Virus record (IMG/VR): IMGVR_UViG_3300027881_000007
Location: 1-64,000 of that record
Strand: one strand, 5' to 3'
Length of the DNA: 64,000 nt
From: a virus
Shown here: positions 42,877 through 58,322 of the stretch, piece after piece
How positions within the stretch are numbered: position 1 is the first letter of the stretch
Layout of the letters: each line of letters begins with the position of its first letter
The notes under the pieces: model-generated
The model's database searches: none
The model's input: the letters and a program-made list of their open reading frames with translations, nothing else
What the model was told of the DNA's origin: nothing
Program-made: the position numbers and the translations under genes

Positions 42877-43113
42877 CTATACTAGTTGCTCCATAGCGTC
42901 AATAATACCTCGTATATTAGTGCGACTATTAAGACAATCACATGGGGGTCTGCCAACACAATCACAAAAGGTTACCACCTGACAGTAAGGACACTTATAC
43001 CATACAGTCAACCTTTTATTACACCTTATACAGTTGACCTCATAATCCCTATCACCTAACTCATTGTCAATCATACGGACATTGAAAAGATGTTCATCCT
43101 GAGTATCAATCAT
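42877..43113 (-). CDS. Zinc-ribbon protein, triplet copy 3
   Basis: 78 residues from the ATG at 43113. Motif order: CIRC, CPYC, then CDCVGRPPCDC, followed by a helix ending MEQLV. The leader GTAGGGGTCATGTAT before the ATG is nearly the same as for the other two copies, which fixes the start. Last of three tandem paralogues (42877-43606). Probably binds zinc; role unknown. Confidence 0.65.
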   Translation of the reverse strand: MIDTQDEHLFNVRMIDNELGDRDYEVNCIRCNKRLTVWYKCPYCQVVTFCDCVGRPPCDCLNSRTNIRGIIDAMEQLV

Positions 43114-43381
43114 ATACATGACCCCTACTAAGTATATCTTCTTTCAACTGTTTAGCTCCACACATTATAACCATATAATTCATACGTTCAATAAGGCATC
43201 TAATTTCTTTAGTCGTGGTCATACACCTACATACATATCCTGTGCAGTCACCACAGAAATATACCTTCTTACATGACGGACAATTAAAGCGATCCCCTGT
43301 ACGCATACCACAGTTGATGCAATATACAATCTCATCAATATCATCTATGATAATTAATTTTGCAGTTTTGCCTTTGATCAT
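43106..43381 (-). CDS. Zinc-ribbon protein, triplet copy 2
   Basis: 91 residues: CINC, CPSC, then CGDCTGYVCRC and a longer helical tail (IRCLIERMNYMVIMCGAKQL). The N-terminus MIKGKTAKLIIIDD is shared with copy 1. Leader GTAGGGGTCGTAT. It overlaps copy 3 by 8 bases. Confidence 0.65.
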   Translation of the reverse strand: MIKGKTAKLIIIDDIDEIVYCINCGMRTGDRFNCPSCKKVYFCGDCTGYVCRCMTTTKEIRCLIERMNYMVIMCGAKQLKEDILSRGHVYD

Positions 43382-43390
43382 ATACGACCC

Positions 43391-43606
43391 CTACAGATTC
43401 AGTTGCTTCATCTCCTCAATAGTCTCTCTCAATATATTAATGAGAGTATCAGAACATCCACACAAAGGTTCTGCATGACAATCACAGAAATATACACTCC
43501 CACATTGAGGACAAGTATACCAATCCTCTACTGGTTCATTACACCTCATACAGTATAGTACAGTATCATCTATAATGGTTAAGTCTGGAGTTTCGCCCTT
43601 GATCAT
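43391..43606 (-). CDS. Zinc-ribbon protein, triplet copy 1
   Basis: 71 residues: MIKGETPDLTIIDD, CMRC, CPQCGSVYFCDC, CGC, then a helix ending EEMKQLNL. Leader TATAGGAGTCATAT. All three copies keep two CxxC pairs and an extra Cys-rich knuckle, so eight to nine cysteines may bind two metals. Confidence 0.65.
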   Translation of the reverse strand: MIKGETPDLTIIDDTVLYCMRCNEPVEDWYTCPQCGSVYFCDCHAEPLCGCSDTLINILRETIEEMKQLNL

Positions 43607-44557: not shown

Positions 44558-44876
44558 TCATCTTGTATGGATCAACTATAAGCCATTGCTCATACTCCCA
44601 CCGCCTCATATTAACTAATACATCACAATTGTCGTCGGTTCTAATAAAGATCCATCTTCGGGTGAAACCAGTTATGACCCCACGCTTACCTCTAACCTCT
44701 ACCTTCACATTAATGCTCAGTCTCTTATTGACCATGAAGTAGAAGTATGCGACCATGCTATCAATAAAGTTCTTGAGAGCTAACATGACTCCAAATGCAA
44801 TAAGAGTTTGAAATAGGAACCACCATAGTTGCGGTTTAACTGCTGTCATTATTTCCATCATCTCCTTCTGTCCCAT
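44553..44876 (-). CDS. Small membrane protein with MscS-like core
   Basis: 107 residues. A membrane helix (LWWFLFQTLIAFGVMLAL) is followed by an amphipathic helix and a beta domain (KVEVRGKRGVITGFTRRWIF, then DDNCDVLVNMRRWEYEQW). This order resembles the pore helix and beta domain of MscS-type channels, with much of the usual protein missing. GGAGAT precedes the start. Alternatively a simple membrane-tethered beta protein. Confidence 0.5.
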   Translation of the reverse strand: MGQKEMMEIMTAVKPQLWWFLFQTLIAFGVMLALKNFIDSMVAYFYFMVNKRLSINVKVEVRGKRGVITGFTRRWIFIRTDDNCDVLVNMRRWEYEQWLIVDPYKMT

Positions 44877-45258
44877 AACATATCTCCTTCTCTCTTAAGT
44901 ATTCTTTTACTATCTGTATAACTCGACTTCGTATGTCATTGAGCATTTTCTTAGTTCTTAGATGTTTTGGTTGATAAAGAGTCTCGTCGTCATAGAATTC
45001 CTGACCAATTCGTGAGTAAATCTCTTTTAAATGCTCACAAGACTCTGAACAGTTTACATATATTAGGCACTGTGAGCAAATTAGGTCATTTATCGGATCT
45101 GATAGGTTTTTCACTGTTGAGTCGATTTTGACCTGCTCACGTGGATCCTGCGTAAAAATTTTCTTTCTAATCATGGTGCATCCAACCGCCGCCTTTTCTA
45201 ACTTTTTATCTGGATGAGATTTTTTTATGGATCGGTCATACCCAATCTTGTATAGCAC
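44836..45258 (-). CDS. C-x2-C-x5-C-x3-C family protein 1
   Basis: 140 residues, the longest of the family. CSQCLIYVNCSESC lies at mid-protein, followed by helices (HLKEIYSRIGQEF; DIRSRVIQIVKEYLREKE). The first 60 residues are basic. The GTG start overlaps the preceding stop; an internal ATG (MIRKKIFTQD) is an alternative start. Motif shared with twelve other genes here. Confidence 0.6.
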   Translation of the reverse strand: MLYKIGYDRSIKKSHPDKKLEKAAVGCTMIRKKIFTQDPREQVKIDSTVKNLSDPINDLICSQCLIYVNCSESCEHLKEIYSRIGQEFYDDETLYQPKHLRTKKMLNDIRSRVIQIVKEYLREKEICYGTEGDDGNNDSS

Positions 45259-45476
45259 TAATTTTTTCCATCATGTAAGAGAATGATCCAGATGAAGGGG
45301 ATTAAGATAATAAGGAGCGTCATACAAACAATTAACTTAACGGGTTCCTTTAAAGCTCCTCTTCTCTCCTCTTGTCGCTCATACTTCCTCTTATCCTCAC
45401 AGGATATAGAACAAGCAGATATAATTAAGCAAGCGGGACAAGGATCCCTCAGTCGGGTAAACATCCACTTTTTCAT
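45258..45476 (-). CDS. C-x2-C-x5-C-x3-C family protein 2 with membrane helix
   Basis: 72 residues from the ATG at 45476. CPACLIISACSISC near the N-terminus is followed by a charged segment and a C-terminal membrane helix (LIVCMTLLIILIPFIWIILL). This copy places the Cys motif at the membrane. Confidence 0.6.
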   Translation of the reverse strand: MKKWMFTRLRDPCPACLIISACSISCEDKRKYERQEERRGALKEPVKLIVCMTLLIILIPFIWIILLHDGKN

Positions 45477-45517
45477 ACTCAAGATCCCACGAATTTTTTA
45501 GTATCCAATTTTTCACC

Positions 45518-45694
45518 CTATATAGGAGTTTCAACTCCATCTTCATCCACCTTAGAGTCCATATAGAAAATCAAACCCCCACATATAATCATATGGATAA
45601 AGAAAGCATTCCATAGACCCATAACAGGTAGACTAATGAAAATAGCAATTGCCATATTCAATACCACCAGGGTTATCCAAGGGTAGAACCACAT
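45518..45694 (-). CDS. Small two-helix membrane protein
   Basis: 58 residues. Two hydrophobic helices (MWFYPWITLVVLNMAIAIFI; NAFFIHMIICGGLIFYM) and an acidic tail (DSKVDEDGVETPI). GGAGGGGGAAGACTGA precedes the ATG. It fills a gap between clear genes. Holin-like in size; function unproved. Confidence 0.5.
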   Translation of the reverse strand: MWFYPWITLVVLNMAIAIFISLPVMGLWNAFFIHMIICGGLIFYMDSKVDEDGVETPI

Positions 45695-45710
45695 TCAGTC
45701 TTCCCCCTCC

Positions 45711-46145
45711 CTACCTTATACCATTAATTATGTCATAATTCTTCTTCACAAAAGCAAGGGCCTTCTTTTTACCCTTCTCCTCCAACTTCCTCATTAATAC
45801 CTTAACTTTCTCATCCTTGTCTTTCAACCCTTGCATATTTTTATCTAATAGTTCATTATACTTTTTCTTCTTCTCAGGATCTGTGGTCTTAGTGATCACT
45901 TTCTTAAGGGCACTAATGGCACATCTCTGGTGACATAGGATTCCTAACTTGCCACTCTTTGACATATACTGAACATATAGCATCCCCGGAAGGGTACCTA
46001 ATAGGAATCCTGTTGCTGTCTTGGTACTCAACTTTAGTAGTTTATCACACCTTCTATTACATGGTATGACCTCTTTCATAAATTCTTTGCCATAATATGC
46101 TTCATGTATGTATAACTGTTCTAAATAGGTATCCATTATTTCCAT
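45711..46145 (-). CDS. Basic helical protein with capsid-targeting-like N-terminus
   Basis: 144 residues from the ATG at 46145, preceded by GGAGGAGTTAAG. MEIMDTYLEQLYIHEAYYG is a looser version of the recurrent element (Y-L-x-x-L, then IHE-A). The following region has a hydrophobic segment (TATGFLLGTLPGMLYVQYM), three or four Cys, and a Lys/Glu-rich helical end (KKKKKYNELLDKNMQ type). Candidate internal virion protein. Confidence 0.5.
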   Translation of the reverse strand: MEIMDTYLEQLYIHEAYYGKEFMKEVIPCNRRCDKLLKLSTKTATGFLLGTLPGMLYVQYMSKSGKLGILCHQRCAISALKKVITKTTDPEKKKKYNELLDKNMQGLKDKDEKVKVLMRKLEEKGKKKALAFVKKNYDIINGIR

Positions 46146-46146
46146 C

Positions 46147-46335
46147 TTAACTCCTCCCCCTCCCCCTGTCCTCAATCCAATAAGGGGAATCCTCATCTAT
46201 ATTCAATAGTTTACCACAATGGTTACAGTATGCAGGGTACCCATCCATTACATAGGAAAATGTGTGCATACTCATACCTTTACATAGGGAGCAGACAAAT
46301 TTATCCAACCTCTCATAGTCTACAGCTTCTTTCAA
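46147..46335 (-). CDS. Small zinc-ribbon protein
   Basis: 62 residues. Pairs CSLC and CNHC form a zinc ribbon with a typical GYPAYCNHCGKLL knuckle. The start is a TTG with AGGTG 5 bases upstream; no ATG precedes the first Cys. Function unknown. Confidence 0.6.
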   Translation of the reverse strand: MKEAVDYERLDKFVCSLCKGMSMHTFSYVMDGYPAYCNHCGKLLNIDEDSPYWIEDRGRGRS

Positions 46336-46365
46336 TTTTTCACCTCCCTCTCCTTAGAACAATCC

Positions 46366-46812
46366 TTAAATGGTCATCTCTATATTCATTACTGTATCAG
46401 GATGCAATATCATATCGTCTTTGTTTATATGCCAATAGTCTTTAGTAGTACCACCAAACTTACGGGACATACCATCCCAATCTGCAATCATCTGTTTAAC
46501 ATACTTCATTGGCATAGGTATGGGGATTATCTCGTCTTTCCTAGTTACACTGACCCAATAATTCCAGTGGTGTTTATTTCTCTTTTGATGCCTTAACCAA
46601 CCCAACTGAAAGTTCATATTGTGTTCGTCAGACTGTTTGTACTCCTCGGTGCGATTTGTCTCATTAAAAAACCTTGCATATGGAATAAACTCTGACGGCA
46701 GAAACTTTGATAAATCATGGGTTATGCCATGGATGAATTGCCTAGACTTGACACACTCTATAAATACATTCCATTTATGCTCACACACATACCAAAAGTA
46801 TCTCCAGTACAT
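46366..46812 (-). CDS. DUF5662-like protein
   Basis: 148 residues from the ATG at 46812. The pattern fits DUF5662, a family I recall from phages: THDLSKFLPSEFIPYARFF, then GWLRHQKRNKHHWNYWVSV, MPMKYVKQMIADWDGMS and ILHPDTV. The conserved His and Asp residues resemble HD-type hydrolases, so a phosphohydrolase role is plausible but untested. Confidence 0.75.
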   Translation of the reverse strand: MYWRYFWYVCEHKWNVFIECVKSRQFIHGITHDLSKFLPSEFIPYARFFNETNRTEEYKQSDEHNMNFQLGWLRHQKRNKHHWNYWVSVTRKDEIIPIPMPMKYVKQMIADWDGMSRKFGGTTKDYWHINKDDMILHPDTVMNIEMTI

Positions 46813-46813
46813 A

Positions 46814-46948
46814 CTACTCAACCTCTTGTTCTCTTATATCAGAACAATCCTCACAGGTATATTCCATCTCCTCTCCTACAAGGAAACATACCACAGGTTC
46901 ATTACTTATCATAGGGTCTATCTGTTTATTACAGTCAGAACAGTTCAC
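46814..46948 (-). CDS. Small zinc-binding protein
   Basis: 44 residues from a GTG with AGGAG five bases upstream, just after the previous stop. CSDC and CEDC pairs separated by about 28 residues form a short zinc site. Acidic. Tightly spaced with the DUF5662 gene downstream. Confidence 0.5.
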   Translation of the reverse strand: MNCSDCNKQIDPMISNEPVVCFLVGEEMEYTCEDCSDIREQEVE

Positions 46949-46956
46949 ATTAACTC

Positions 46957-47220
46957 CTATATATGCAGGAACAATGATGCCATAGCTCCACCAAATAATA
47001 TTACCCAAAATATCAACTTCATAGCTTCCACTGTATCAAATAGGTTCTTCCTAATCACACCACACCTACTATTATATAAAATACATTGCTCACACACTTC
47101 AGTACATATAGTTTCAATGAGGCATCTCTCACAGGGGTTTCTTAGTATCTTAACCCTGTTGAGTCCTTCTATCAACTTGTCATCCCATATCCATTGACGG
47201 TCATCCATATTGTCATCCAT
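46957..47220 (-). CDS. C-x2-C-x5-C-x3-C family protein 3 with membrane helix
   Basis: 87 residues. CERCLIETICTEVC sits near residue 35, followed by CILYNSRCG and a C-terminal membrane helix (MKLIFWVILFGGAMASLFLHI). AGGAGTTGGG precedes the ATG. Like copy 2, it couples the motif to the membrane. Confidence 0.6.
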   Translation of the reverse strand: MDDNMDDRQWIWDDKLIEGLNRVKILRNPCERCLIETICTEVCEQCILYNSRCGVIRKNLFDTVEAMKLIFWVILFGGAMASLFLHI

Positions 47221-47262
47221 CCCAACTCCTACCTTGAAAACTCAGAGTCCAAGTCCGAATTT

Positions 47263-47655
47263 TCATTGAGGTCCATACTTGGGTAATGTGATCCAGGGTT
47301 TTTTGTATTCAGTCTTGCTAAAACTAACCTTCTCTGAATAATAACCATTTGATTCACCTAACCATCTAATGGTCACAGAACCTATAATGGTTGACAACTT
47401 ATAGAATGTCCATGTAAAACTCTCACTACCATACTCCACAGAGTGGTCGTGCTTCTCATTACTAACAACCTCTTCGGCCAACAGTATGGGGTTACCAATT
47501 AAATCCTTTAAATCTCCAACAACATCCACGATGTTGACGGTTTCACATCAGTCTTTGGCATGATACATCTTATATATATCACCTTCTTCGGTGGTAAATG
47601 TCATCTCCGTACTGCCTACATTACCATTGATCTCCTTTATGATCTCATTTTTCAT
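47263..47655 (-). CDS. Possible UGA-readthrough (selenocysteine-type) gene, or gene broken by one stop
   Basis: ATG at 47655 overlaps the preceding stop (ATGA). The frame runs 35 codons ([12 protein letters not shown] ... YHAKD), meets TGA at 47550-47548, then continues in the same frame through [20 protein letters not shown] to a stop at 47263, 130 sense codons in all. The whole reads like one conserved phage protein family I recall (DUF7448-like) in which D-C-C-E-S-V follows the H-x-x-D segment; here the first Cys codon is TGA. The only restart codon, GTG at 47529, has no ribosome site. A 17-base perfect hairpin with a GTG loop (47520-47536) begins 11 bases after the TGA, as in E. coli fdhF. 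A simple nonsense mutation remains possible. Confidence 0.55.
47520..47536 (-). promoter_or_regulatory. Candidate bacterial SECIS hairpin
   Basis: Minus strand CAACATC-GTG-GATGTTG: seven perfect pairs and a three-base loop starting with G, beginning 11 bases after an in-frame UGA. Distance, stem length and loop G meet the usual bacterial SECIS rules; no bulged U is visible in the upper stem. Confidence 0.45.
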
Positions 47656-47963
47656 TTCTTCGAACCTTGCCACTTGTCGTCCCTCCGCCTCAATTCAAAT
47701 TGATACTCATTACCGTCCCTGAACTCCAGCCTGTGGATACACAACTCCCACCATAGTAGTTTAATGGACTTCCATTTTAGTTTGATTGTCATCTTCAACT
47801 CCTTGAACTCTTCCATCAACTTAATGTATTCGTCTGCAGCTATCTTATCTATAATATAAGTAGAACTCATGAGGCTGTGTCTTTCTAATCTCTGTATGAT
47901 ATTGTTCTTCATCCTTTCGATGACTCTATCTATTGCATCATTCCATCCTTTGTAATAGTCCAT
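47652..47963 (-). CDS. Small protein of unknown function
   Basis: 103 residues, basic and helical (AIDRVIERMKNNIIQRLERH; YIKLMEEFKELKMTIKLKWK), ending FELRRRDDKWQG. Its stop overlaps the start of the UGA-containing gene, so the two are translationally coupled. Not recognised. Confidence 0.55.
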   Translation of the reverse strand: MDYYKGWNDAIDRVIERMKNNIIQRLERHSLMSSTYIIDKIAADEYIKLMEEFKELKMTIKLKWKSIKLLWWELCIHRLEFRDGNEYQFELRRRDDKWQGSKK

Positions 47964-47969
47964 AATCCG

Positions 47970-48287
47970 TCACTCTACGAGAGTGTCCACAATATAGTTT
48001 AGGTTTTCTATTAACTCGTCCTCACTAACCTTATATGTACATCCTCCTAACCATCCCATCATTGCTCCATAAACTGTATGATAATTCTGACACGCTCCAC
48101 TACATATAGTGAATACTAGACAGTCTGTGCATATTTCTCTAACAACCAATGTTACTACGGCCATTAAATCCCATCCACTTCGAATGATCTTTGTGTGATC
48201 TTGTGCGGCCAAGTTTATACTGCTATGGTTGTATTTGAAGTCTGCCACACTGGGGATAATGTCAATTTTCTTCATGATTGCTGTCAT
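47970..48287 (-). CDS. C-x2-C-x5-C-x3-C family protein 4
   Basis: 105 residues. CTDCLVFTICSGAC near residue 53, then NYHTVYGAMMGWLGG and YKVSEDELIENLNYIVDTLVE. It belongs to subgroup A (Y-x-x-M-x-W-L after the motif) with copies 5, 6 and 7. The upstream gene overlaps its start. Confidence 0.65.
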   Translation of the reverse strand: MTAIMKKIDIIPSVADFKYNHSSINLAAQDHTKIIRSGWDLMAVVTLVVREICTDCLVFTICSGACQNYHTVYGAMMGWLGGCTYKVSEDELIENLNYIVDTLVE

Positions 48288-48543
48288 CTTCTTCTTTAAA
48301 CTCCTTTAATATAGTCCAGAACTTCTCTTCTATTCTCTTTTTAGATACATTTAGGTCAGCTATATCTACTAACCATTTCCACATACGACCATAGACCGCG
48401 TCGAAACTAGGGCAACCTATGGTGCAAGTCGATACCACGAGACATTCCTTACAGAGGTTTTCGTCTATTAGGGGTCTGGTTGTCTCTGTGGCATCTTGAT
48501 ATAATGCCTCGACCCTCACTTCGAGGTCATGTATGTTGGACAT
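48262..48543 (-). CDS. C-x2-C-x5-C-x3-C family protein 5
   Basis: 93 residues. CKECLVVSTCTIGC near residue 31, then SFDAVYGRMWKWLVDIADLN and a charged helix. AAGGAG lies 10 bases before the ATG. Subgroup A. Confidence 0.65.
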   Translation of the reverse strand: MSNIHDLEVRVEALYQDATETTRPLIDENLCKECLVVSTCTIGCPSFDAVYGRMWKWLVDIADLNVSKKRIEEKFWTILKEFKEEDDSNHEEN

Positions 48544-48763
48544 CCTTTATAATCTCCTTGAAGTCTATTATATTCCAAAAGTCCGTAAAACCTTGACAGG
48601 GTAATTTCCAACCCATATGTGTAGAACGCCAGTTGGTATCACCCCACATACCAATGCTGATTTTAGATTCGCCACACCTCTCACAGTACCACATCTCTCC
48701 GCCACCAATCCATTTGTGGGTACGGTCATATCTATAGACTTCTCTATCACTTATAGTTGTCAT
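48527..48763 (-). CDS. Small zinc-binding-like protein
   Basis: 78 residues. One CERC pair (MWYCERCGESKISIGMW) and a late Cys, with many Trp and Gly residues. Likely a half zinc ribbon. Overlaps copy 5 and the next gene. Confidence 0.5.
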   Translation of the reverse strand: MTTISDREVYRYDRTHKWIGGGEMWYCERCGESKISIGMWGDTNWRSTHMGWKLPCQGFTDFWNIIDFKEIIKDVQHT

Positions 48764-48887
48764 ACTTAGACTTCCAGGGCTTCCAGTAGTAGGGACAATA
48801 TAAACCTTTTTTACCTGCCTGGGGGCTGTGGCAATAACATACTCTACCTATCTTTATTCCGTGCATACAATAACCTTTTATATTCAT
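48747..48887 (-). CDS. Small Cys-rich protein
   Basis: 46 residues from the ATG at 48887, with GAGTGG upstream. MNIKGYCMHGIKIGRVCYCHS and GLYCPYYWKPWKSK hold four Cys and two His, a possible zinc site. An upstream in-frame ATG at 48971 would add a segment with two more Cys (LCEW, ECEW) but overlaps the next gene by 46 bases. Start uncertain. Confidence 0.45.
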   Translation of the reverse strand: MNIKGYCMHGIKIGRVCYCHSPQAGKKGLYCPYYWKPWKSKYDNYK

Positions 48888-48925
48888 TTTATGCCACTCA
48901 CATTCATTTTGTCTACTTTTAAATT

Positions 48926-49213
48926 CTATGATAATTCTCCACTCACATAGTCTAAACCGAGGCACTCCCATAGGTCTTCTCTTAAACTACCATATACCCA
49001 CCAAGTGCAATGCTCTCGTCTTATAGTGTGACAAGTAACACAAGTTTTGAATGTATTGAATCGACCATCCCATTTACCATTAACTCTTTCATACTTCTGC
49101 CCTGGTAGAATCGGTTCACCACATTCACAACACTTATGGGTCTTCCTGGCAACTACAACCTTCTCTGTAGCAAACTCAGGCATATCGCCCGTGTCATTAC
49201 ATACACATTTCAT
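48926..49213 (-). CDS. Zinc-binding protein
   Basis: 95 residues. KCVCNDTGDMPEF opens the protein; CCECGEPILPGQKYE and CVTCHTIRREHC form a zinc ribbon with a third pair. WVYGSLREDLWECLG ends it. I recall similar proteins in other phages (HKC-x-x-C, PG-x-x-Y), without a function. Four-base overlap with the following gene. Confidence 0.6.
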   Translation of the reverse strand: MKCVCNDTGDMPEFATEKVVVARKTHKCCECGEPILPGQKYERVNGKWDGRFNTFKTCVTCHTIRREHCTWWVYGSLREDLWECLGLDYVSGELS

Positions 49214-49500
49214 GTTGAATCTCCAATCTCTATTTGCTTGTTCTTAAATAGGTTTTCGTGACCCTGAAAACCAGGGAACAGCTGATAATAAGATAGTCCA
49301 TCTGCCTTAATTTCATCTAATTCAACAGATAAATGTGTAGGTATAAAGTCTCCTGAATATTCAGAACTTTTATTTGAGAGGTATATATTTGTAACTATAT
49401 GTCCAGTCTCTTGATGGAATTTATATAATAGTTGGGCAAGTCGGGATTCAAGTTCACACCTCTTCTTCTTTATTTTCTCTAGGTCTTTCATCTTCTTCAT
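49210..49500 (-). CDS. Small protein of unknown function
   Basis: 96 residues. A basic coiled N-terminal helix (KKMKDLEKIKKKRCELESRL) is followed by a mixed domain (HLSVELDEIKADGLSYYQLF). No known motif. Confidence 0.5.
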   Translation of the reverse strand: MKKMKDLEKIKKKRCELESRLAQLLYKFHQETGHIVTNIYLSNKSSEYSGDFIPTHLSVELDEIKADGLSYYQLFPGFQGHENLFKNKQIEIGDST

Positions 49501-49501
49501 T

Positions 49502-49747
49502 TCAACTCCTTCTCTTTGAGGACTTAGACTTCAGTTTCTTGATTTTGTGTCCCTTCACTTTGTGAGGTGGCAACTTATAACCTACAAGCTCCCCCGAGAA
49601 TCTGCCAAATACATCCATGGGTTTTAGTCTTTTATTGCACACGGGACATCTATATTTCTTATCATTATCGTCGAACCATGCTTCACCAGTACACCAGTCG
49701 CTCATTCTAAATCTCCCATGACCTCCCTTACCTTCTCGCTTGCTCAA
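49502..49747 (-). CDS. Small basic zinc-ribbon protein
   Basis: 81 residues. A CPVC pair (YRCPVCNKRLKPMDVFGRFSG) and one upstream Cys (SDWCTGEAW) sit between basic ends (KREGKGGHGRFRM; KVKGHKIKKLKSKSSKRRS). Probably binds nucleic acid. Confidence 0.55.
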   Translation of the reverse strand: MSKREGKGGHGRFRMSDWCTGEAWFDDNDKKYRCPVCNKRLKPMDVFGRFSGELVGYKLPPHKVKGHKIKKLKSKSSKRRS

Positions 49748-50096
49748 CTAAACCTTCTATTCTGTCTAATATTCCTAAGTAATTTAATTCGCCGGCCGTG
49801 TACTTGTGCTCATTATCATTTAACCACTGTACCATGCTTTTATATGTATCTAAGTACTCTGAACACACAACTTTACACACTGGGTCAACTAAACATTCCC
49901 CACATACTACACCTGATATAACAGTTAGTACTTCTCTAGCCGTGGGACCACACTCAAATTTATAGTTTAAACCTATCATCTTAATATTTACTGTTGGCTT
50001 CTTACATCCCTTTAGTTGTTGGTGTTCCTTCGAACCGGACGGGATGTTTATATAAATGGGGTCTACTGCTGTTAATTTATCTCTCATTATTTCCAT
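49728..50096 (-). CDS. C-x2-C-x5-C-x3-C family protein 6
   Basis: 122 residues from the ATG at 50096 (GGGGGA four bases upstream). CGECLVDPVCKVVC is followed by SEYLDTYKSMVQWLNDNEHK and a helix. About 65 residues precede the motif. Subgroup A. Confidence 0.65.
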   Translation of the reverse strand: MEIMRDKLTAVDPIYINIPSGSKEHQQLKGCKKPTVNIKMIGLNYKFECGPTAREVLTVISGVVCGECLVDPVCKVVCSEYLDTYKSMVQWLNDNEHKYTAGELNYLGILDRIEGLVEQARR

Positions 50097-50326
50097 CAAT
50101 TCCCCCAAGTCTCTACTAACTCGTCTAGTTTTATTTTGAACTCATCTTCTGTAACATTGTATCCTTTTATCCTGGAGAACCAACTTATCATTGTTCCATG
50201 TATCATGGAGTAGTTGTGACATGACATTTCACATATGAAACCAACCAGGCAGTCCTTACATACAACTTCCTCTATAGCAATTAATATATGTCTACCCCAT
50301 CCCGGTTTCCATTCTACTTGCTCCAC
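50096..50326 (-). CDS. C-x2-C-x5-C-x3-C family protein 7
   Basis: 76 residues. CKDCLVGFICEMSC near residue 23, then HNYSMIHGTMISWFSRIKGY and EDEFKIKLDELVE. Very similar in layout to copy 4. Stop and next start overlap (TGATG). Confidence 0.65.
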   Translation of the reverse strand: MEQVEWKPGWGRHILIAIEEVVCKDCLVGFICEMSCHNYSMIHGTMISWFSRIKGYNVTEDEFKIKLDELVETWGN

Positions 50327-50574
50327 GTTTCACCCTTCTTCCTCTGTATTACACTCATTGCCTGCCTGAGAAAATGTTGCTCAACCTTCTTTGTATAGGG
50401 ACGACTTTTGTCTATTCTACCAGTTGCACGTTCCGCCCAATCATACTTTCCTCTGCCGTCACAATGAGGACATACAATTGCCTCTGGTTCAAATGGTTCA
50501 TCATTCGTGGGTGCTAATACTAGTCCAACTCCACTACATTGACCACATAAATATTCACCCTCTTTTAATCTCAC
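50314..50574 (-). CDS. DnaJ-type zinc-finger protein
   Basis: 86 residues. CGQCSGVGLVLAP and CPHCDGRGKYDW are CxxCxGxG repeats of the DnaJ cysteine-rich type, two repeats giving one zinc site. The rest is a basic helix. No J domain is present. Role unknown, possibly a protein-folding or binding adaptor. Confidence 0.7.
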   Translation of the reverse strand: MRLKEGEYLCGQCSGVGLVLAPTNDEPFEPEAIVCPHCDGRGKYDWAERATGRIDKSRPYTKKVEQHFLRQAMSVIQRKKGETWSK

Positions 50575-50815
50575 TAAATCTATCCTTCCATGTTTCGTGT
50601 GTAATCAATATAGCCTTCGCTCGATGTGAGAGTATACCTTTAGCTTCAAATACTTCCCATAGTTCATCACAGACTTCACTACAGTTCATAAACAATATGC
50701 AGTCACTACATTTCTCTTCGACTACCTGAGTTGCCTTGTCGGCCATCTCACTCCAGTCTTGTTTGTTCTTCGTTATTTCTCTTGGGAATAGTTTCACTTT
50801 ATATAATCTCCCCAT
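50555..50815 (-). CDS. C-x2-C-x5-C-x3-C family protein 8
   Basis: 86 residues. CSDCILFMNCSEVC, then DELWEVFEAKGILSHRAKAIL. Subgroup B (D-E-L-W after the last Cys, then SHR or THR) with copies 9 and 10. An internal ATG at 50746 with GGAG is an alternative start that keeps the motif. Confidence 0.65.
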   Translation of the reverse strand: MGRLYKVKLFPREITKNKQDWSEMADKATQVVEEKCSDCILFMNCSEVCDELWEVFEAKGILSHRAKAILITHETWKDRFSEIKRG

Positions 50816-51000
50816 CTATCAACTACATGTCTCACTCGATGTGCCATACTTACAGGGGTTATGAGATCTAAAGGGATATTGATATTATTCTCCCTTAATA
50901 CCTCGTATAAGTCGACACAGGATTCGCTACATCTGGTGTACAATAGGCATCCCTGACATTTCTCTAAAATAATTTCAACTAATCTTTCAGCTTCTCTCAT
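50794..51000 (-). CDS. C-x2-C-x5-C-x3-C family protein 9
   Basis: 68 residues. CQGCLLYTRCSESC near residue 15, then VDLYEVLRENNINIPLDLIT and AHRVRHVVDRWG. Subgroup B. It directly follows copy 10. Confidence 0.65.
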   Translation of the reverse strand: MREAERLVEIILEKCQGCLLYTRCSESCVDLYEVLRENNINIPLDLITPVSMAHRVRHVVDRWGDYIK

Positions 51001-51201
51001 TTAATACTTATTCCTCCACGCATTCCGTATGAGTATACCCATTACTCGATGTGTATAGATTTTCTCCCTTTCAAATTCGCTCCACAACTCATCACAGACT
51101 TCACTACAATTCACTTGTACTATACACTTTTTACAATGTCCTCTAATAAGTTTAAGAGCTCTATCCACTTTTTCATTATCTGATAGTTCACGATCCTTCA
51201 T
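51001..51201 (-). CDS. C-x2-C-x5-C-x3-C family protein 10
   Basis: 66 residues from the ATG at 51201 (GAGG six bases upstream). CKKCIVQVNCSEVC, then DELWSEFEREKIYTHRVMGIL. Closest to copy 8. Subgroup B. Confidence 0.65.
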   Translation of the reverse strand: MKDRELSDNEKVDRALKLIRGHCKKCIVQVNCSEVCDELWSEFEREKIYTHRVMGILIRNAWRNKY

Positions 51202-51463
51202 ATGGAACCTCTTCACTTGTAACAGTATGCTTAAGAAACTTAACCATAGTTAGAATGTCTTTTTCTTCCATATCCCCTTGTGCTTTAATCCTCTCTAGAG
51301 AGGTCATGTATATCTCATTAAACTCGGGGCAAATGTCAGAGCATGTTGTACTAACTAAACAATCAGGACAGAGCACTTTGACTATTGTAATCGCCATTAC
51401 TCTTATCGCTCTGGCTGGAACTTGAGGTTGATTCGTTGCTTTGTGACTATAACTATGTCTCAT
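51188..51463 (-). CDS. C-x2-C-x5-C-x3-C family protein 11
   Basis: 91 residues. CPDCLVSTTCSDIC near residue 33, then PEFNEIYMTSLERIKAQGD and a helical tail. The N-terminus is basic (SYSHKATNQPQVPARAIR). Four-base overlap with gene 51460-51663. Confidence 0.65.
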   Translation of the reverse strand: MRHSYSHKATNQPQVPARAIRVMAITIVKVLCPDCLVSTTCSDICPEFNEIYMTSLERIKAQGDMEEKDILTMVKFLKHTVTSEEVPYEGS

Positions 51464-51663
51464 TTTAGAGCATCCAGTATGGCAACTACATGGTTGCCCG
51501 TCGCACCACAGTAACCATTATATGCTTCTGGAACATTAATGTCCCACGTCTTAATAACATCCCACACAGCGTTAAATTCAGGTGTCTCCAGTTCTTCTGG
51601 TAGTGGATCTCTCCACTCGATTGGGTTCTTCAGTTCATTCACTTCTTTCACTTCTCTCTTCAT
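51460..51663 (-). CDS. Small acidic protein
   Basis: 67 residues from the ATG at 51663 (AAGGAG upstream). PIEWRDPLPEELETPEFNAV and NGYCGATGNHVVAILDAL suggest a small folded domain. Not recognised. Confidence 0.5.
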   Translation of the reverse strand: MKREVKEVNELKNPIEWRDPLPEELETPEFNAVWDVIKTWDINVPEAYNGYCGATGNHVVAILDALK

Positions 51664-51677
51664 TCGCTTGTCTCCTT

Positions 51678-51908
51678 TTAACCAAATAACCAATGAGCAA
51701 AGTCTAACAGTACCATATCTCTAAACTTTAAAATGAATCCATATAATCCGAAAACAATCAAAACTAGATATAAAAATCCTAAGAACATCGCAATAGTTGC
51801 TAGTGCAGATGCCAGGACTGCCAACCAGTGAAGTATTTTACGCCACCAGGGCAGTCCGGCATACCATTTTTCAAATGGTTTAGGATATTTCTGTTTAACT
51901 TTTGCCAC
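51678..51908 (-). CDS. Small membrane protein
   Basis: 76 residues. A basic, aromatic N-terminus (KPFEKWYAGLPWWRKIL) and one or two membrane helices (HWLAVLASALATIAMFLGFL; YLVLIVFGLYGFIL). Unknown function. Confidence 0.5.
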   Translation of the reverse strand: MAKVKQKYPKPFEKWYAGLPWWRKILHWLAVLASALATIAMFLGFLYLVLIVFGLYGFILKFRDMVLLDFAHWLFG

Positions 51909-51926
51909 TGCAAAATCCTATGCTTA

Positions 51927-52052
51927 TCATTTCTTAAATAAAGATTTAACCCACTCAACAAACTTATCAACGTACTTCTTCACCAACGCTGGTTGTGCAA
52001 TAAAATTCCAACCAACTATTAAACCTATTCCAAAACTAATAATAAGGTCCAT
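51927..52052 (-). CDS. Small membrane protein
   Basis: 41 residues with AGGAGG nine bases before the ATG. A hydrophobic segment (LIISFGIGLIVGWNFIA) and an amphipathic basic tail (VKKYVDKFVEWVKSLFKK). Too short for the supplied frame list but well supported by its ribosome site. Confidence 0.55.
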   Translation of the reverse strand: MDLIISFGIGLIVGWNFIAQPALVKKYVDKFVEWVKSLFKK

Positions 52053-52064
52053 AATAATTGCCTC

Positions 52065-52271
52065 CTAGTATGGTATGATTGTGATTAAATCGGCCACCCC
52101 ATAACCTCCGTGGCCATTGCCCTCGCAGTTGTGCATATTAAATAGATGATCTCGGGGCACTTTGAATGTATTACTAATTAGGACATCCTGTAAAATTTTA
52201 TCTGGTACTATTTTCTCTTCTTTGTAAGTTAGTCCACAGTTTCTACAAGTGTAGACGAACTCGTTTTCCAT
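52065..52271 (-). CDS. Small zinc-ribbon-like protein
   Basis: 68 residues. CRNC near the start and a late His/Cys cluster (HNCEGNGHGGYG) can bind zinc. It overlaps the next gene by 43 bases. Confidence 0.5.
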   Translation of the reverse strand: MENEFVYTCRNCGLTYKEEKIVPDKILQDVLISNTFKVPRDHLFNMHNCEGNGHGGYGVADLITIIPY

Positions 52272-52471
52272 GTTCCCTCCTCCTTCATTCGTTGTATATC
52301 ACTGACTTTTGTAAGATGACACCCACAAGTACACCATGTGAATCTTTTATCCTTTTCAAATAGTTCATATTCCTTTTCTTGTTTAAATCTTTCTATTGAT
52401 TCTGGAGACCATGTTTGATTACAGTTGTAGCATTTCCATAACCATCTATAATCATCTGGAAGTTTTCCCAT
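52229..52471 (-). CDS. Small zinc-binding protein
   Basis: 80 residues from the ATG at 52471 (GGGAG upstream). CYNC and CTCGCH pairs surround an acidic/basic helix (RFKQEKEYELFEKDKRF). Two-site zinc ribbon. Unknown role. Confidence 0.55.
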   Translation of the reverse strand: MGKLPDDYRWLWKCYNCNQTWSPESIERFKQEKEYELFEKDKRFTWCTCGCHLTKVSDIQRMKEEGTWKTSSSTLVETVD

Positions 52472-52476
52472 TGTTT

Positions 52477-52668
52477 TTACTCCCAATAAATACAGTCAAC
52501 GGGGCACACTTCCATTGCCTCTGCTATACATTCTTGATCAGTACTATCTGGGTCGATAACTTCTGCCAGCTCTGTGGACTCATTAAAACGAAATATGTCA
52601 GGACATACAATGACACAATTTTCACATCCATTACATTCATCCGCATCTATTCTAACTCCTTTAGCCAT
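52477..52668 (-). CDS. Ferredoxin ([4Fe-4S] type)
   Basis: 63 residues, the size of small bacterial ferredoxins. DADECNGCENCVIVCPDIF carries C-x2-C-x2-C-x3-C-P, and a second region ends MEVCPVDCIYWE. One complete cluster motif is present, and the last Cys pair can complete or stabilise it. Phage ferredoxins can supply electrons to reductases or radical SAM enzymes; the local radical SAM protein is a possible partner (inference). Confidence 0.85.
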   Translation of the reverse strand: MAKGVRIDADECNGCENCVIVCPDIFRFNESTELAEVIDPDSTDQECIAEAMEVCPVDCIYWE

Positions 52669-52679
52669 ACCTAACTCCT

Positions 52680-52907
52680 TTATGTATATTGATGATTCTT
52701 CTGTTCTTTCACATCTCTTGCCATTGATAATAACTCCGCTTTACGTTCAACTGTTCTATCGTGATGTCTAGTGTCTGCACACATTATCATTAGATAATCT
52801 ATGCCTTCACAGTATTCACTACAAGTTGCTCTAACTATACAACCTTTACATACTATTTCTTTAATTGCTTTCTTACATTCATTATACATACGAATATGTT
52901 CTTTCAT
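52680..52907 (-). CDS. C-x2-C-x5-C-x3-C family protein 12
   Basis: 75 residues. CKGCIVRATCSEYC near residue 21, then EGIDYLMIMCADTRHHD with an extra Cys and two His. Its ATG overlaps the stop of gene 52904-53251. Confidence 0.65.
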   Translation of the reverse strand: MKEHIRMYNECKKAIKEIVCKGCIVRATCSEYCEGIDYLMIMCADTRHHDRTVERKAELLSMARDVKEQKNHQYT

Positions 52908-53251
52908 CTACGGTCCTCTGCAAGTTTTCTCTTAAACGCATCTACACATCTTCCGCATATGTCATATTCTTCTTTAAGTTTTTCAATGTATGATTCGCTT
53001 CCGTCCCATACTTGTTTAGAAGGATACAAATCAATACCGCAGCATCCTCGGGATGATCCTCCTTTTATGTGCACTTTCTTAGATTTTGAGGTCTGTTTAA
53101 CAATTAGAACAAGTTTTCTAGTACCAACTCTTGCCTTTGCTCGTCTTTTCCTTCTTCTTTCTTCTAGTATAAAGTCTGGAACTACTCCACCAAATATGGA
53201 TCTACAGGGACCCATGTGTGCCTTTCCACAATCCCAACACCGATCAGTCAT
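52904..53251 (-). CDS. Zinc-binding basic protein
   Basis: 115 residues from the ATG at 53251 (AAGGAG upstream). CWDCGKAHMGPC at the start, a basic middle (RRRKRRAKARVGTRKLVLIV), GCCGIDLYPSK, and CGRCVDAFKRKL at the end. The three Cys groups suggest two metal sites. Likely nucleic acid binding. Confidence 0.6.
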   Translation of the reverse strand: MTDRCWDCGKAHMGPCRSIFGGVVPDFILEERRRKRRAKARVGTRKLVLIVKQTSKSKKVHIKGGSSRGCCGIDLYPSKQVWDGSESYIEKLKEEYDICGRCVDAFKRKLAEDRR

Positions 53252-53289
53252 CTTCGTCTCCTTCACTATTCACAGATACTCATCTTCAC

Positions 53290-53556
53290 TTATACATATA
53301 CTCCAACAATGATGCCACCGATTGTAAAAAATAAAAGATCTAATGCTGTATCGTCCCAATGACCTATAGGCCATTGATCAATTGTTTCTCGGGGTAGACC
53401 TAATAGAAAACCGCTTATCCCTCCCATGTACCAGTTGGGATTACTAGCTATAGGGTATAATGCAATTGCTGCCCAAGCTAAGTGAAAGAGTTGATCAAGT
53501 CTTTTTCTCCATGTCTTACCAATCAATTCATCAATCTTGTCTTTAATAGCCATCAT
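53290..53556 (-). CDS. Small membrane protein
   Basis: 88 residues with hydrophobic helices near 27-48 and 68-88. GFLLGLPRETIDQWPIGHWD is a conserved-looking loop that I recall from phage membrane proteins. No function known. Confidence 0.5.
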   Translation of the reverse strand: MMAIKDKIDELIGKTWRKRLDQLFHLAWAAIALYPIASNPNWYMGGISGFLLGLPRETIDQWPIGHWDDTALDLLFFTIGGIIVGVYV

Positions 53557-53761
53557 CTTCCCCTTTAGTTAGTCCTTTCGCACTATCTATAGCTAATTGC
53601 TTAACCTCATCTGGAGACAACCTTCTACCTATTCTCCCCTCTATTGTATTCATTTGTCTATAAACGGGATTGAAAACTTCGCGATATGTATCGCACGGCA
53701 TATCACAAGTAGCATGAACTATACAACCTTTACATATTATCTCGACGACTTCTTCGATCAT
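53543..53761 (-). CDS. C-x2-C-x5-C-x3-C family protein 13
   Basis: 72 residues. CKGCIVHATCDMPC near residue 10, then DTYREVFNPVYRQMNTIEG. Very close to copy 12 in the motif (CKGCIVxATC). It marks the right end of the family cluster. Confidence 0.65.
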   Translation of the reverse strand: MIEEVVEIICKGCIVHATCDMPCDTYREVFNPVYRQMNTIEGRIGRRLSPDEVKQLAIDSAKGLTKGEDDGY

Positions 53762-54928: not shown

Positions 54929-55204
54929 TTATGGGCGAGGAATCTGATCTTTATCGTCTGGGGGAGAAGTTTTGGGAGATTTATCTTTAGGATCCTTCTT
55001 TTTAGCAGCAGCAGCCCACTCTTGAATCTTATTTGAACCTACATAAGCACCCCACAAAATTGCAACTAATTCTGGGGTTAAAGAAGGATATGGTTTTTCA
55101 AAATACCAAGCAAATGGAAACATAAATACAACCATACCTGTAAGAATTGTAGCAAAGAATGCAGTCTTTGAGGCCTTGTTATCAACACTCCATAAGAATT
55201 TCAT
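54929..55204 (-). CDS. Small membrane protein (holin-like size)
   Basis: 91 residues from the ATG at 55204 (GAGGAG upstream). Two hydrophobic stretches (AFFATILTGMVVFMFPFAWY; PELVAILWGAYVG) and a charged, Pro-rich tail (KKKDPKDKSPKTSPPDD). The topology suits a holin or a membrane partner of the spanin-like genes next to it; not proved. Confidence 0.5.
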   Translation of the reverse strand: MKFLWSVDNKASKTAFFATILTGMVVFMFPFAWYFEKPYPSLTPELVAILWGAYVGSNKIQEWAAAAKKKDPKDKSPKTSPPDDKDQIPRP

Positions 55205-55932
55205 TGTATTCTCCTCACAAAAAGTAATGGCCATCTCTCATCGAAATTAGTAAAGTGTCGGTTCAACTGTTTCACTTCTTTTGTATCTGGAATATCTAAT
55301 CTGTTTGGTTTAACTTTATATCTAACATTCCCTGTGAGGACACATCCTTCAACTAGTCCACAAAACTGAGCAACCCGTTTTCCCCTTCTTTTAGGTTTTT
55401 TACAGTAGTCTTCATATCTCACAACCTTATATAAATCTGAAGGTAGTGTTGTTAATTGTGTATTTAAACGAGATAACTGTTCTTCGTGAATAACAGCTCC
55501 AGCCCTAAGATTTACTGAATGTCTTCTCCGAAAAGTTGATAAGACACACATTATAGGATTTCTAACCATTACAACTATTTTTAAATCATCCTTAAACAAA
55601 TCATATACATCATATAGATCTGGAGCGGAACGAGCACTCCCTCCAAAGGGTGCAGACCGTTTATATAGTACAACATCCTTTCTTGGAAATTTTTGAAGAA
55701 GTTTATCAATCATTGGTTGTATTTGACTCTTAGCATCTTGATGTTGTTTAAAGTCGCCTTGGCGATCCCACATTGTTCTTGTCAACTCATTAAACTCATT
55801 AATCAAGGGATCATTAAGTGGTCGATGATTTCCGCCAAGAGTTAAAACATTGCCCGGAGTGCTTAGTATTCTGAGCATCATTGTCGTACCAGAACCAGAG
55901 CAACCAACAATAAAGATAAACTTATAACTCAC
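55201..55932 (-). CDS. Sulfotransferase-like protein A
   Basis: 243 residues. IFIVGCSGSGTTMMLRIL is the 5'-phosphosulfate loop of PAPS-dependent sulfotransferases, and IVVMVRNPIMCVLSTFRRRHS is the 3'-phosphate motif (RNP then S). The rest fits a P-loop sulfotransferase. Part of a run of four such proteins (55201-58994) next to an APS-kinase-like gene. Acceptor unknown; glycans are likely. Confidence 0.75.
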   Translation of the reverse strand: MSYKFIFIVGCSGSGTTMMLRILSTPGNVLTLGGNHRPLNDPLINEFNELTRTMWDRQGDFKQHQDAKSQIQPMIDKLLQKFPRKDVVLYKRSAPFGGSARSAPDLYDVYDLFKDDLKIVVMVRNPIMCVLSTFRRRHSVNLRAGAVIHEEQLSRLNTQLTTLPSDLYKVVRYEDYCKKPKRRGKRVAQFCGLVEGCVLTGNVRYKVKPNRLDIPDTKEVKQLNRHFTNFDERWPLLFVRRIQ

Positions 55933-55941
55933 TTCAATCTC

Positions 55942-56532
55942 CTATAATACTAAGACAAGAGCAATCCCAACAGCAATTGCTCCTATAACTCCAAGGGTAA
56001 TTTTATTTTCAATTCTTTGTTTCTCTAATTTATATTCCAACTGTAGAACTCTATTCTCGGCATTTACCCATAGAGTCCTGTAACGCTGAATGGTTATATC
56101 TTGGAGTTTGACAACATCTAACATTGCATTGTAAAGTTCAACTTCAACTTGTACTCTCTGAACCAATAGTTCAGAAATTTCAGCCATCATTTTGCCTTGC
56201 TCAATCTTGGCAACTATTTTGTTGTGCTCTTCAACAAGATATCCAACTACTTCAGCACCCTCTGGCACTTCCCCTTCCCAATCAAACTCTGTAGTCTGAC
56301 CTTTTCTTATTAAGATAATGGGAACAGGTTCATTCATTTTATGAACTTTATGAAGTATCTGCTTTAGTTTATCAACTCTGAGTTTGAAGGGGCGTTGGAA
56401 TCTCTCTTCCATTTCAATGGGTTTAAATTCATCTGGAGGCTTGAAATCTTTTGGACCGCTGGCACAACTAGTCAGCAGACCAATTCCAAGCAGCACGTAG
56501 ACGATCCAGGGACTCCTTAGCCGTTTGAACAT
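55942..56532 (-). CDS. Spanin-like lipoprotein with C-terminal membrane helix
   Basis: 196 residues. Signal peptide with lipobox LLTSC (Cys23), a long periplasmic helical part (ISELLVQRVQVEVELYNAML; RVLQLEYKLEKQRIENK) and a C-terminal membrane helix (ITLGVIGAIAVGIALVLVL). An outer-membrane lipid anchor plus an inner-membrane helix is the layout of unimolecular spanins, which fuse the two membranes at lysis. The gene start is embedded in the end of gene 56468-56839, as in Rz/Rz1 pairs. Confidence 0.65.
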   Translation of the reverse strand: MFKRLRSPWIVYVLLGIGLLTSCASGPKDFKPPDEFKPIEMEERFQRPFKLRVDKLKQILHKVHKMNEPVPIILIRKGQTTEFDWEGEVPEGAEVVGYLVEEHNKIVAKIEQGKMMAEISELLVQRVQVEVELYNAMLDVVKLQDITIQRYRTLWVNAENRVLQLEYKLEKQRIENKITLGVIGAIAVGIALVLVL

Positions 56533-56839
56533 TTTTTATCTCCTTAACGGTTCTATTAAAAGTCCTAATAGACCTACCTAAGTCGATCTTAACCACTTGC
56601 GCCACCTCTTCTCTTTTTGTCATCTTCGTTGCTAGGTTGTCATTTGCAACAGCAAGCTGACTTAGTGCAGTTGTTAGTTGTTGCATTTGAACGAACTGTT
56701 TCATTTCATAGTTGTGGCGGTCCGTTAGCATATCCTTTGTCTCACTACGATAGCTAAGAAATATAATGAGAATAATAATAGCGAGAATGAATATGCCAAA
56801 GTCCTTAATTATTCCTAAGGCCTTGCTGAGTGCATCCAT
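56468..56839 (-). CDS. Membrane coiled-coil protein (inner spanin-like)
   Basis: 123 residues from the ATG at 56839 (AAAGGAG upstream). One N-terminal membrane helix (FGIFILAIIILIIFLSY), then a coiled coil (FVQMQQLTTALSQLAVANDN). It overlaps the spanin-like lipoprotein gene by 65 bases in another frame, as inner spanins (Rz) overlap Rz1. Together they suggest a two-gene lysis module, although the partner alone could span both membranes. Confidence 0.6.
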   Translation of the reverse strand: MDALSKALGIIKDFGIFILAIIILIIFLSYRSETKDMLTDRHNYEMKQFVQMQQLTTALSQLAVANDNLATKMTKREEVAQVVKIDLGRSIRTFNRTVKEIKNVQTAKESLDRLRAAWNWSAD

Positions 56840-57627
56840 TATACCCACTCCTTTATTCTATATCCCAAAAGGTCAAACAGTTTTTCATTTTGTTCTCTGT
56901 AAAAGATATTAAATTCTCTCCTCACCTTTTTCTCCATTGGTTCGAAATTAGCCCCTACCCTTGACCAAACCTTATATACCTTTTCTTGGCTGTCCTTATA
57001 CATATCCCCTGTTTTCTTGCTATACCTTTTAGAAGGATGAATAATTTCAGTGGGAAAGTCAATAGGATCTGCTCCAAGAAATTCGTGTATCTTACTCATC
57101 TCATTAGTGGTATCTTCTTTCATCCTTTCGACAATGTATATATGAACCTGTTCTCTAGGAATATTTATAAAGACATTTTCTGCAAGATGCTTATAATATC
57201 TTCCCAATCTCAGATACATAGTCTTAAATTTTCTACAATTTTCTAAAGTAAATTTCCAGTTCACTTTTTTTGCTTGAACATTCATTCTATAGTGTGAGTA
57301 TGCCCGATCAGTTGGATTTCTAATTCCTATTATCAGTTTTGTGTCAGGAGCATATCTGCCCATAAGTCTCATAGCTTTTCTATGTCCTGCATAATCTGGA
57401 CTTTTTTCACCAGAAATTTTTCCCACAAACTTACTCTTATACCATTTAATTCCTTTATTCCAATTGTGTAAACCCCAAAATCTCATTTCAGTTCCACCGC
57501 CTACACCTGGTCTAACTGGACCTCCCCTTTTAGACATTGTTATATCTGGATGTTTATTCAGGTTTAGAAACAACTGAGTAGTTCCACACTTTAAAAAACC
57601 TGCTATTATAAAATCAGGAAGTTTCAA
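56839..57627 (-). CDS. Sulfotransferase B
   Basis: 262 residues, the clearest of the four. DFIIAGFLKCGTTQLFLNLN is the 5'-phosphosulfate loop, and IIGIRNPTDRAYSHYRM is the 3'-phosphate motif typical of heparan-type N-sulfotransferases. GEKSPDYAGHRKAM supplies the region with the catalytic-base-like residues. PAPS is the donor; the acceptor could be an amino sugar or hydroxyl on a glycan. Confidence 0.85.
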   Translation of the reverse strand: MKLPDFIIAGFLKCGTTQLFLNLNKHPDITMSKRGGPVRPGVGGGTEMRFWGLHNWNKGIKWYKSKFVGKISGEKSPDYAGHRKAMRLMGRYAPDTKLIIGIRNPTDRAYSHYRMNVQAKKVNWKFTLENCRKFKTMYLRLGRYYKHLAENVFINIPREQVHIYIVERMKEDTTNEMSKIHEFLGADPIDFPTEIIHPSKRYSKKTGDMYKDSQEKVYKVWSRVGANFEPMEKKVRREFNIFYREQNEKLFDLLGYRIKEWV

Positions 57628-58321
57628 TACAATCTCCTATCTCGTAAACTGGTCCATCGAATTTATTAAATACCTTTATAACATCATTAAATCTTGGGTC
57701 AACCCTTTTCAACATAAAACCATTCTTCTTATGGTTGAGTATTCTCCCAACTCTCATAGGTTCTCTGTAATCGAATGGATCTAGATTACAATGTTCATAA
57801 ATTCTCGCTGATATTTCTTTAAAGTTTGAGACCATATTTTCATACTTTATTGTTAAACAACTTTTTAAGTCTGCAATCATTTCAGTGTACTTTGGTATAT
57901 AAGTAATATACTCATCAATCATTCTGGGAATCTGTTTCATCTTTCCCCTTTTACGATATTTCATTTTTATAATCGAATTCCATGAGTCAAGGGGATGTCT
58001 CACTATTTGAATTATTCTTGCATCACTACCAAAGAGTTCATTCCATTTTTCACAATATTCAACAACTGTAATATTTGATAAATGGCGTTTACCAATTACT
58101 CTCTTTTCGTAGATTAGTTTATCTCCATGATTTAACTTAAACTTAGGGTATTTGTTGTAAAGATAATTCTTAGTTGTAAATTGAAATCTAGATGAATATC
58201 TACTTCGTATTATATGCTCTTCATTAAACATACCTGCCATTTGTGGATGTTTCTTACAAGTCCTATATGTAAGTGTAGTCCCACTTCTTGGAAATCCGAC
58301 AACCAAAACCTTTACTCCCAA
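57614..58321 (-). CDS. Sulfotransferase-like protein C
   Basis: 235 residues. VLVVGFPRSGTTLTYRTCKK is the phosphosulfate loop; IIQIVRHPLDSWNSIIKMKY is the 3'-phosphate motif. ATG overlaps gene B by 14 bases. Substrate unknown. Confidence 0.8.
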   Translation of the reverse strand: MGVKVLVVGFPRSGTTLTYRTCKKHPQMAGMFNEEHIIRSRYSSRFQFTTKNYLYNKYPKFKLNHGDKLIYEKRVIGKRHLSNITVVEYCEKWNELFGSDARIIQIVRHPLDSWNSIIKMKYRKRGKMKQIPRMIDEYITYIPKYTEMIADLKSCLTIKYENMVSNFKEISARIYEHCNLDPFDYREPMRVGRILNHKKNGFMLKRVDPRFNDVIKVFNKFDGPVYEIGDCIETS

Positions 58322-58322
58322 A

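Follow-up and report, generated by a model that had tools for sequence, protein, structure and literature searches.

A widespread multicopy phage family of small four-cysteine proteins, apparently undescribed, with a candidate metal-binding loop

The stretch of DNA analysed here, hereafter the window, comprises 64,000 nucleotides of the 113,344-base IMG/VR viral contig IMGVR_UViG_3300027881_000007 (positions 1 to 64,000), and it raises the question of what a phage does with thirteen small genes whose products share one four-cysteine motif. A preliminary description took these proteins for free-standing modules of the SPASM type, the domain that binds auxiliary clusters in radical S-adenosylmethionine (SAM) enzymes. 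We find a real, widespread and previously unnamed multicopy phage family of small Cys4 proteins that is apparently undescribed and, judged by its sequences, is not SPASM by homology. Tentatively, at a little below an even chance, we propose that its members are miniature Cys4 metal proteins serving as separate accessory adaptors, most likely directed at the host.

A motif scan of the open reading frames (ORFs) of the window places C-x2-C-[LI]-[VLI]-x3-C-x3-C in thirteen minus-strand genes spanning 44836-53761, as had been noted from the sequence, compared with a mean of 0.005 motifs and a maximum of 1 in 200 order-3 Markov shuffles of the window. The 2-5-3 spacing of the cysteines is invariant in all thirteen proteins, [LI][VLI] follows the second Cys, and Ser or Thr follows the third in ten, which agrees with the "usually" of the preliminary description. 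The only genic match beyond the thirteen is a radical SAM protein (38535-39497), and the 49 kb of the contig outside the window hold no additional copy. At least two subgroups had been noticed; they are real but weak, with five proteins in A2 (22-32% identity to its first member) and four in A3 (27-33%). The two members previously credited with membrane helices, 45258 and 46957, do carry a C-terminal hydrophobic helix. A scan for promoters and terminators gave signals not above those of shuffles. The thirteen genes are listed below with lengths in amino acids (aa) and, where computable, the ratio of nonsynonymous to synonymous substitution rates (dN/dS); G003 is a related phage contig of 277 kb.

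53543-53761, minus strand: family member of 72 aa, CKGCIVHATCDMPC, four Cys only; ortholog L171:11926-12144, 54% identity
52680-52907, minus strand: family member of 75 aa, CKGCIVRATCSEYC; ortholog 65% identity, dN/dS about 0.26
51188-51463, minus strand: family member of 91 aa, CPDCLVSTTCSDIC, four Cys only; no reciprocal best hit in G003
51001-51216, minus strand: family member, CKKCIVQVNCSEVC, four Cys only; 71 aa from GTG, 66 aa from ATG 51201
50794-51000, minus strand: family member of 68 aa, CQGCLLYTRCSESC, modelled with AlphaFold2; ortholog 46% identity
50555-50815, minus strand: family member of 86 aa, CSDCILFMNCSEVC, four Cys only; assigned by motif and Cys count
50096-50326, minus strand: family member of 76 aa with GTG start, CKDCLVGFICEMSC, four Cys only; dN/dS about 0.41
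49728-50108, minus strand: family member of 122-126 aa, CGECLVDPVCKVVC; dN/dS about 0.31
48262-48543, minus strand: family member of 93 aa, CKECLVVSTCTIGC, four Cys only; assigned by motif and Cys count
47970-48287, minus strand: family member of 105 aa, CTDCLVFTICSGAC; assigned by motif
46957-47220, minus strand: family member of 87 aa, CERCLIETICTEVC, C-terminal hydrophobic helix; assigned by motif
45258-45482, minus strand: family member of 72-74 aa, CPACLIISACSISC, C-terminal hydrophobic helix kept in the ortholog; assigned by motif and ortholog
44836-45258, minus strand: family member, CSQCLIYVNCSESC; ortholog 55% identity, dN/dS about 0.24

Is the family confined to this phage? A related-locus search seeded with the small proteins returned no matches, and DNA patterns were therefore used to find members. 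Relatives of the radical SAM gene (58% identity; L012-L014) pointed to three contigs akin to this one, the largest of 277 kb, on which seven of the thirteen small genes lie in the same order. A coding-pattern scan with region retrieval assembled 103 members, whose consensus is C-[KE]-[ED]-C-[LI]-[VI]-x3-C-[ST]-[ED]-x-C, 70 of them having a Pro ahead of the first Cys. A profile built from 96 members detects the family on 12 phage contigs, with 2-27 copies in each: 13 on this contig, 18 on G003, 12 on G004, 10 on G005, 8 on G006 and 27 on G018 (89 kb); on six large control contigs it finds none. The family is also present in 11 of 20 phage records that had been selected through an unrelated gene (two of them, G006 and G013, already in the 12-contig set), and the reversed pattern has no match in 20 records. 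With at least 17 phage contigs besides this one now known to carry the family, the idea of an amplification in one phage has to be given up.

That the family had not been described appears to be correct. None of Pfam, PHROG and NCBIfam covers it, no model in them matching more than 10 of the 96 members, and the four-Cys family is not described in the literature searched. Matches by tblastn in INPHARED, which holds cultured phages, were at chance level only, without a convincing relative (two were inspected), and a search of IMG/VR with GC-rich coding variants gave 26 matches, of which a single one, in a Cys/Arg-rich frame, weakly matched the profile; we judge it to be chance. In prokaryote genomes, convincing matches occur only on contigs of one Thermoplasmatales metagenome-assembled genome (MAG), CSMAG_1140, which also carry phage-like genes. 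Three contigs of this MAG account for 16 of 17 pattern matches; the isolated match left over, C43, includes a stop codon and is put down to chance. Two of the MAG contigs, L194 and L204, contain arrays of an eight-Cys form of the protein, and because L204 has phage-type RNA ligase and NADAR genes, the MAG copies are probably viral, the contigs being either misbinned or DNA of an archaeal virus.

The genes behave as genes under selection. Seven ortholog pairs with G003 are 38-65% identical and keep the motif in every case, and dN/dS is 0.24-0.41 where computable, indicating purifying selection, albeit with dS near saturation. Of the 13 family genes, 9 have a reciprocal best hit in G003, at a median identity of 49%; among the flanking genes it is 16 of 17, at a median of 67% (Mann-Whitney p=0.007 against the family), so that the family has diverged faster than its flanks; for the other genes of the island in which it lies, 8 of 23 have a G003 ortholog. 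For the 51001-51216 member the reciprocal match is weak and is the G003 copy adjoining that contig's radical SAM gene, and for gene 44836 the G003 ortholog supports ATG 45174 (112 aa) as a better start than GTG 45258. Because of the reciprocal best hits and the retention of the motif in all seven positional pairs, the thirteen genes are very probably translated and selected. In the tandem array of G018, the similarity between copies falls off slightly with distance (rho -0.20, permutation p=0.003). The overall pattern is that of selected accessory genes, multiplied by duplication, within a variable island.

Outside the motif the proteins vary widely. Members range from about 45 to 190 aa and are free proteins, not joined to a radical SAM domain; the motif may be N-terminal, central or C-terminal, and 23 of the 103 members have the four motif Cys and no other. 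Fourteen carry a C-terminal zinc-ribbon-like part and others have membrane helices. In sequence variants CX2CX5C stays constant and the fourth Cys shifts from X3 to X4, X5, X8, X9 or X18. The eight-Cys form, CX2CX5C...CPCX2CX5CX3C, is found in the G018 array and on the MAG contigs; in G018 (IMGVR_UViG_3300037468_000575) a tandem run of more than 20 such relatives, with two possible metal sites per protein, occupies L173:6522-13454. From its ORFs, the same contig apparently encodes RNA polymerase subunit-like proteins. An AlphaFold2 model of the 50794-51000 product has a helix at residues 2-15, the Cys loop, and helices at 29-37 and 49-67, with a mean predicted local distance difference test (pLDDT) score of 68. 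A search with this model of the PDB and viral structures found nothing significant (best Foldseek E 2.0, best VIA Z 3.9), and a likeness to DNA-binding helical domains (VIA Z up to 3.9) is at background level.

Of the SPASM reading, the spacing has stood and the homology has not. TIGR04085, the SPASM domain model, is the NCBIfam model touched by most members (10 of 96, best value 2.2e-3, aligned to the profile half that contains CX2CX5CX3C), yet shuffles that keep only the four Cys match it about as often and, at best, more strongly (3 of 48, best 3.3e-4), and on this control we reject SPASM homology. SPASM is defined by up to seven Cys and needs a radical SAM domain; in the SPASM protein anSME, CX2CX5C binds three corners of auxiliary cluster Aux II, ligated by Cys317, 320, 326 and 348, whereas Cys330, the motif's fourth Cys, serves Aux I (PMC5715301). 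Since the four motif Cys of SPASM are split between two clusters, a protein with four Cys cannot be a detached SPASM site. The upstream CX9-15GX4C and the downstream seventh Cys of SPASM are missing from the 23 of 103 members that have no other Cys, and these members with four Cys only, together with the mobile fourth Cys of the variants, also speak against a free-standing SPASM module.

What, then, would the loop hold? Its constant element is CX2CX5C together with one more Cys, placed at X3 to X18, which is the ligand logic of WhiB, Cas4/AddB and RseC. WhiB/Wbl proteins bind [4Fe-4S] through CxnCx2Cx5C and, like the family, are small (80-140 aa), helical and engaged with protein partners (PMC7363131); they differ in a fourth Cys N-terminal to CX2CX5C and in a G[VI]WGG motif, neither of which is found in the window sequences, and the PHROG WhiB-like model gives one very weak match (E 0.19). 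The iron staple of Cas4/AddB is likewise a Cys4 iron-sulfur site (PMC3466216), but one that belongs to a nuclease domain and has its fourth ligand far N-terminal rather than four residues on. RseC combines CX2CX5C with membrane anchoring (PMC11729352), as some members do, but uses three conserved Cys. Zinc ribbons and knuckles resemble the family as small Cys-rich modules, and are fused to some members; the family motif itself lacks the CPxCG knuckle and His, and Gly follows the second Cys in none of the 103 members, whereas the ribbons fused to 14 of them are mostly CPxCG. Because of this absence of Gly and the CX2CX5C parallels, we favour a [4Fe-4S] cluster over zinc as the loop metal; the cluster seems the reasonably likely choice, with zinc possible but doubtful. 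Each protein is probably a single-site Cys4 protein.

We therefore put forward the following model in conditional form. A short helix, the 14-residue loop C-x2-C-[LI]-[VI]-x3-C-[ST]-x2-C and more helix would make up the fold, with the four loop Cys of one chain binding a single metal centre that substitutes for a hydrophobic core. The family would grow by duplication while everything except the loop diversifies, its copies sitting in a variable island among other small, often lineage-specific genes. Each copy would be a small accessory adaptor with its own protein partner, some anchored in the membrane and some with an added zinc ribbon, and the adaptors would most likely redirect or protect host processes during infection. 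We infer the host-facing role from the evolutionary pattern, that is, selected accessory genes, a variable island and duplication. Several observations weigh against this proposal: (i) the sequence points to no host target; (ii) the position in the island is common to many unrelated small genes and is not specific to the family; (iii) fast divergence could reflect weak constraint rather than conflict, and dS is close to saturation; (iv) the AlphaFold2 model is no better than moderate and matches no fold significantly, and the eight-Cys form is modelled poorly (pLDDT 54); (v) the 14-residue loop has the length of a CCHC zinc knuckle; and (vi) zinc can replace iron in a Cas4-type site (PMC3466216).

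The rival that we take most seriously, although we consider it rather unlikely, is a loop holding structural zinc, the proteins being mini zinc fingers for protein or nucleic-acid binding. It gains from the zinc-ribbon-like C-terminus of 14 members, from the zinc found in a known Cas4-like Cys4 site and from three unrelated zinc-finger-like paralogs in the same region (42877-43606), and loses from the missing Gly and His and from the recurrence of CX2CX5C plus one Cys in proven [4Fe-4S] families. A neutral origin, in which the genes are products of a duplication-prone, fast-turnover region without a specific common role, is improbable: turnover in the island is indeed high, as the few non-family genes with a G003 ortholog attest, but four Cys and [LI][VI] are kept in 103 members, dN/dS is low, 9 of 13 genes have reciprocal best hits, and amplification has occurred independently in distant phages.

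The two remaining rivals tie the family to radical SAM chemistry, and the preliminary description had pointed to two neighbours on the minus strand as candidate partners:

38535-39497, minus strand: radical SAM enzyme with SPASM-like C-terminus, not a family member; residues 299-312 CKECAVLASCKVGC; TIGR04085 1.1e-5, just under the cut-off
52477-52668, minus strand: small ferredoxin located within the island; not conserved in G003

The ferredoxin has no counterpart in G003, and partnership with it is rejected. The radical SAM enzyme does end in the C-x2-C-x5-C-x3-C reported for it. The idea in the preliminary description of detached SPASM-like electron-transfer or docking modules working with phage radical SAM enzymes has several points in its favour: the spacing is identical, the motif recurs within the SPASM domain of the PapB-like radical SAM enzymes of phages G010 and G011 (CNECLVQIICRNGC and CDDCIVQIMCRNGC), the family profile reaches these SPASM-type domains at E about 1e-5, and radical SAM genes are present on 10 of 12 family contigs compared with 2 of 6 controls. 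We nevertheless regard it as improbable, given the Cys-only shuffles, the division of the four Cys between two clusters in SPASM, and the fact that among 33 loci of the radical SAM enzyme that family genes adjoin in G003 and G005, a strict family gene lies beside it in only 4, all from close relatives, plus the G018 variant. The same count weakens the least probable of the rivals, in which the proteins are precursors of a radical SAM system akin to that of ribosomally synthesized and post-translationally modified peptides, Cys-rich substrates amplified beside their maturase. Family genes directly precede a radical SAM gene in G003 and G005, a fourth-Cys variant does so in G018, Cys-rich paralogs form tandem arrays, and the top NCBIfam match of the window enzyme is the PapB ranthipeptide maturase, through its radical SAM domain; but across the 103 members the Cys spacing never changes although the remaining sequence does, the motif may lie at either end or in the middle and also occurs joined to membrane helices and zinc ribbons, and no leader/core organisation is visible. 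Across the loci compared, the link between family and radical SAM enzymes is not conserved.

Tiny unnamed genes abound in large phage genomes, and here dozens of them per genome can be gathered in a single family that makes a clear biochemical prediction, namely one Cys4 metal site. With a family profile of this kind, many small phage genes could be annotated together. Should the metal be [4Fe-4S], these phages would possess a large redox-sensitive repertoire of adaptors dependent on host iron-sulfur assembly. A bolder version, which we offer as a speculative possibility, is that a self-sufficient 14-residue [4Fe-4S] loop is the common chassis of dozens of swappable, fast-evolving mini-proteins per genome in a large class of uncultivated phages, and that perhaps no viral iron-sulfur family is smaller or more amplified; phage takeover would then be tied to the cluster assembly and redox state of the host.

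Several further genes came to light. PapB-like radical SAM/SPASM maturases of the ranthipeptide type occur in large phages at L113:1881-2969 (NCBIfam 4.7e-32) and L060:1111-2214, and no obvious substrate was identified for them. Some 30 phage loci (L243-L274) share a widespread radical SAM enzyme, about 46-86% identical among them, that has a CRKCNWTC C-terminus and is absent from INPHARED. The 328-kb record G015 (IMGVR_UViG_3300020477_000990), classed as viral, has 22 radical SAM matches and may not be a virus. In the window itself, the three tandem minus-strand paralogs at 42877-43606 encode a different Cys-rich, zinc-finger-like protein (weak MYND and C5HC2 matches), with only one G003 counterpart, and may represent a second expansion of small metal proteins. 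An unusual cargo for a phage lies on the minus strand at 55201-59039, where three genes encode sulfotransferases (Pfam Sulfotransfer_1/3, best E 9e-12 to 5e-16) and one more gene of similar size has no Pfam match, and a complete beta-keto acid cleavage enzyme (BKACE, PF05853, 2.9e-77) is encoded on the same strand at 21794-22663, among the tail-region genes.

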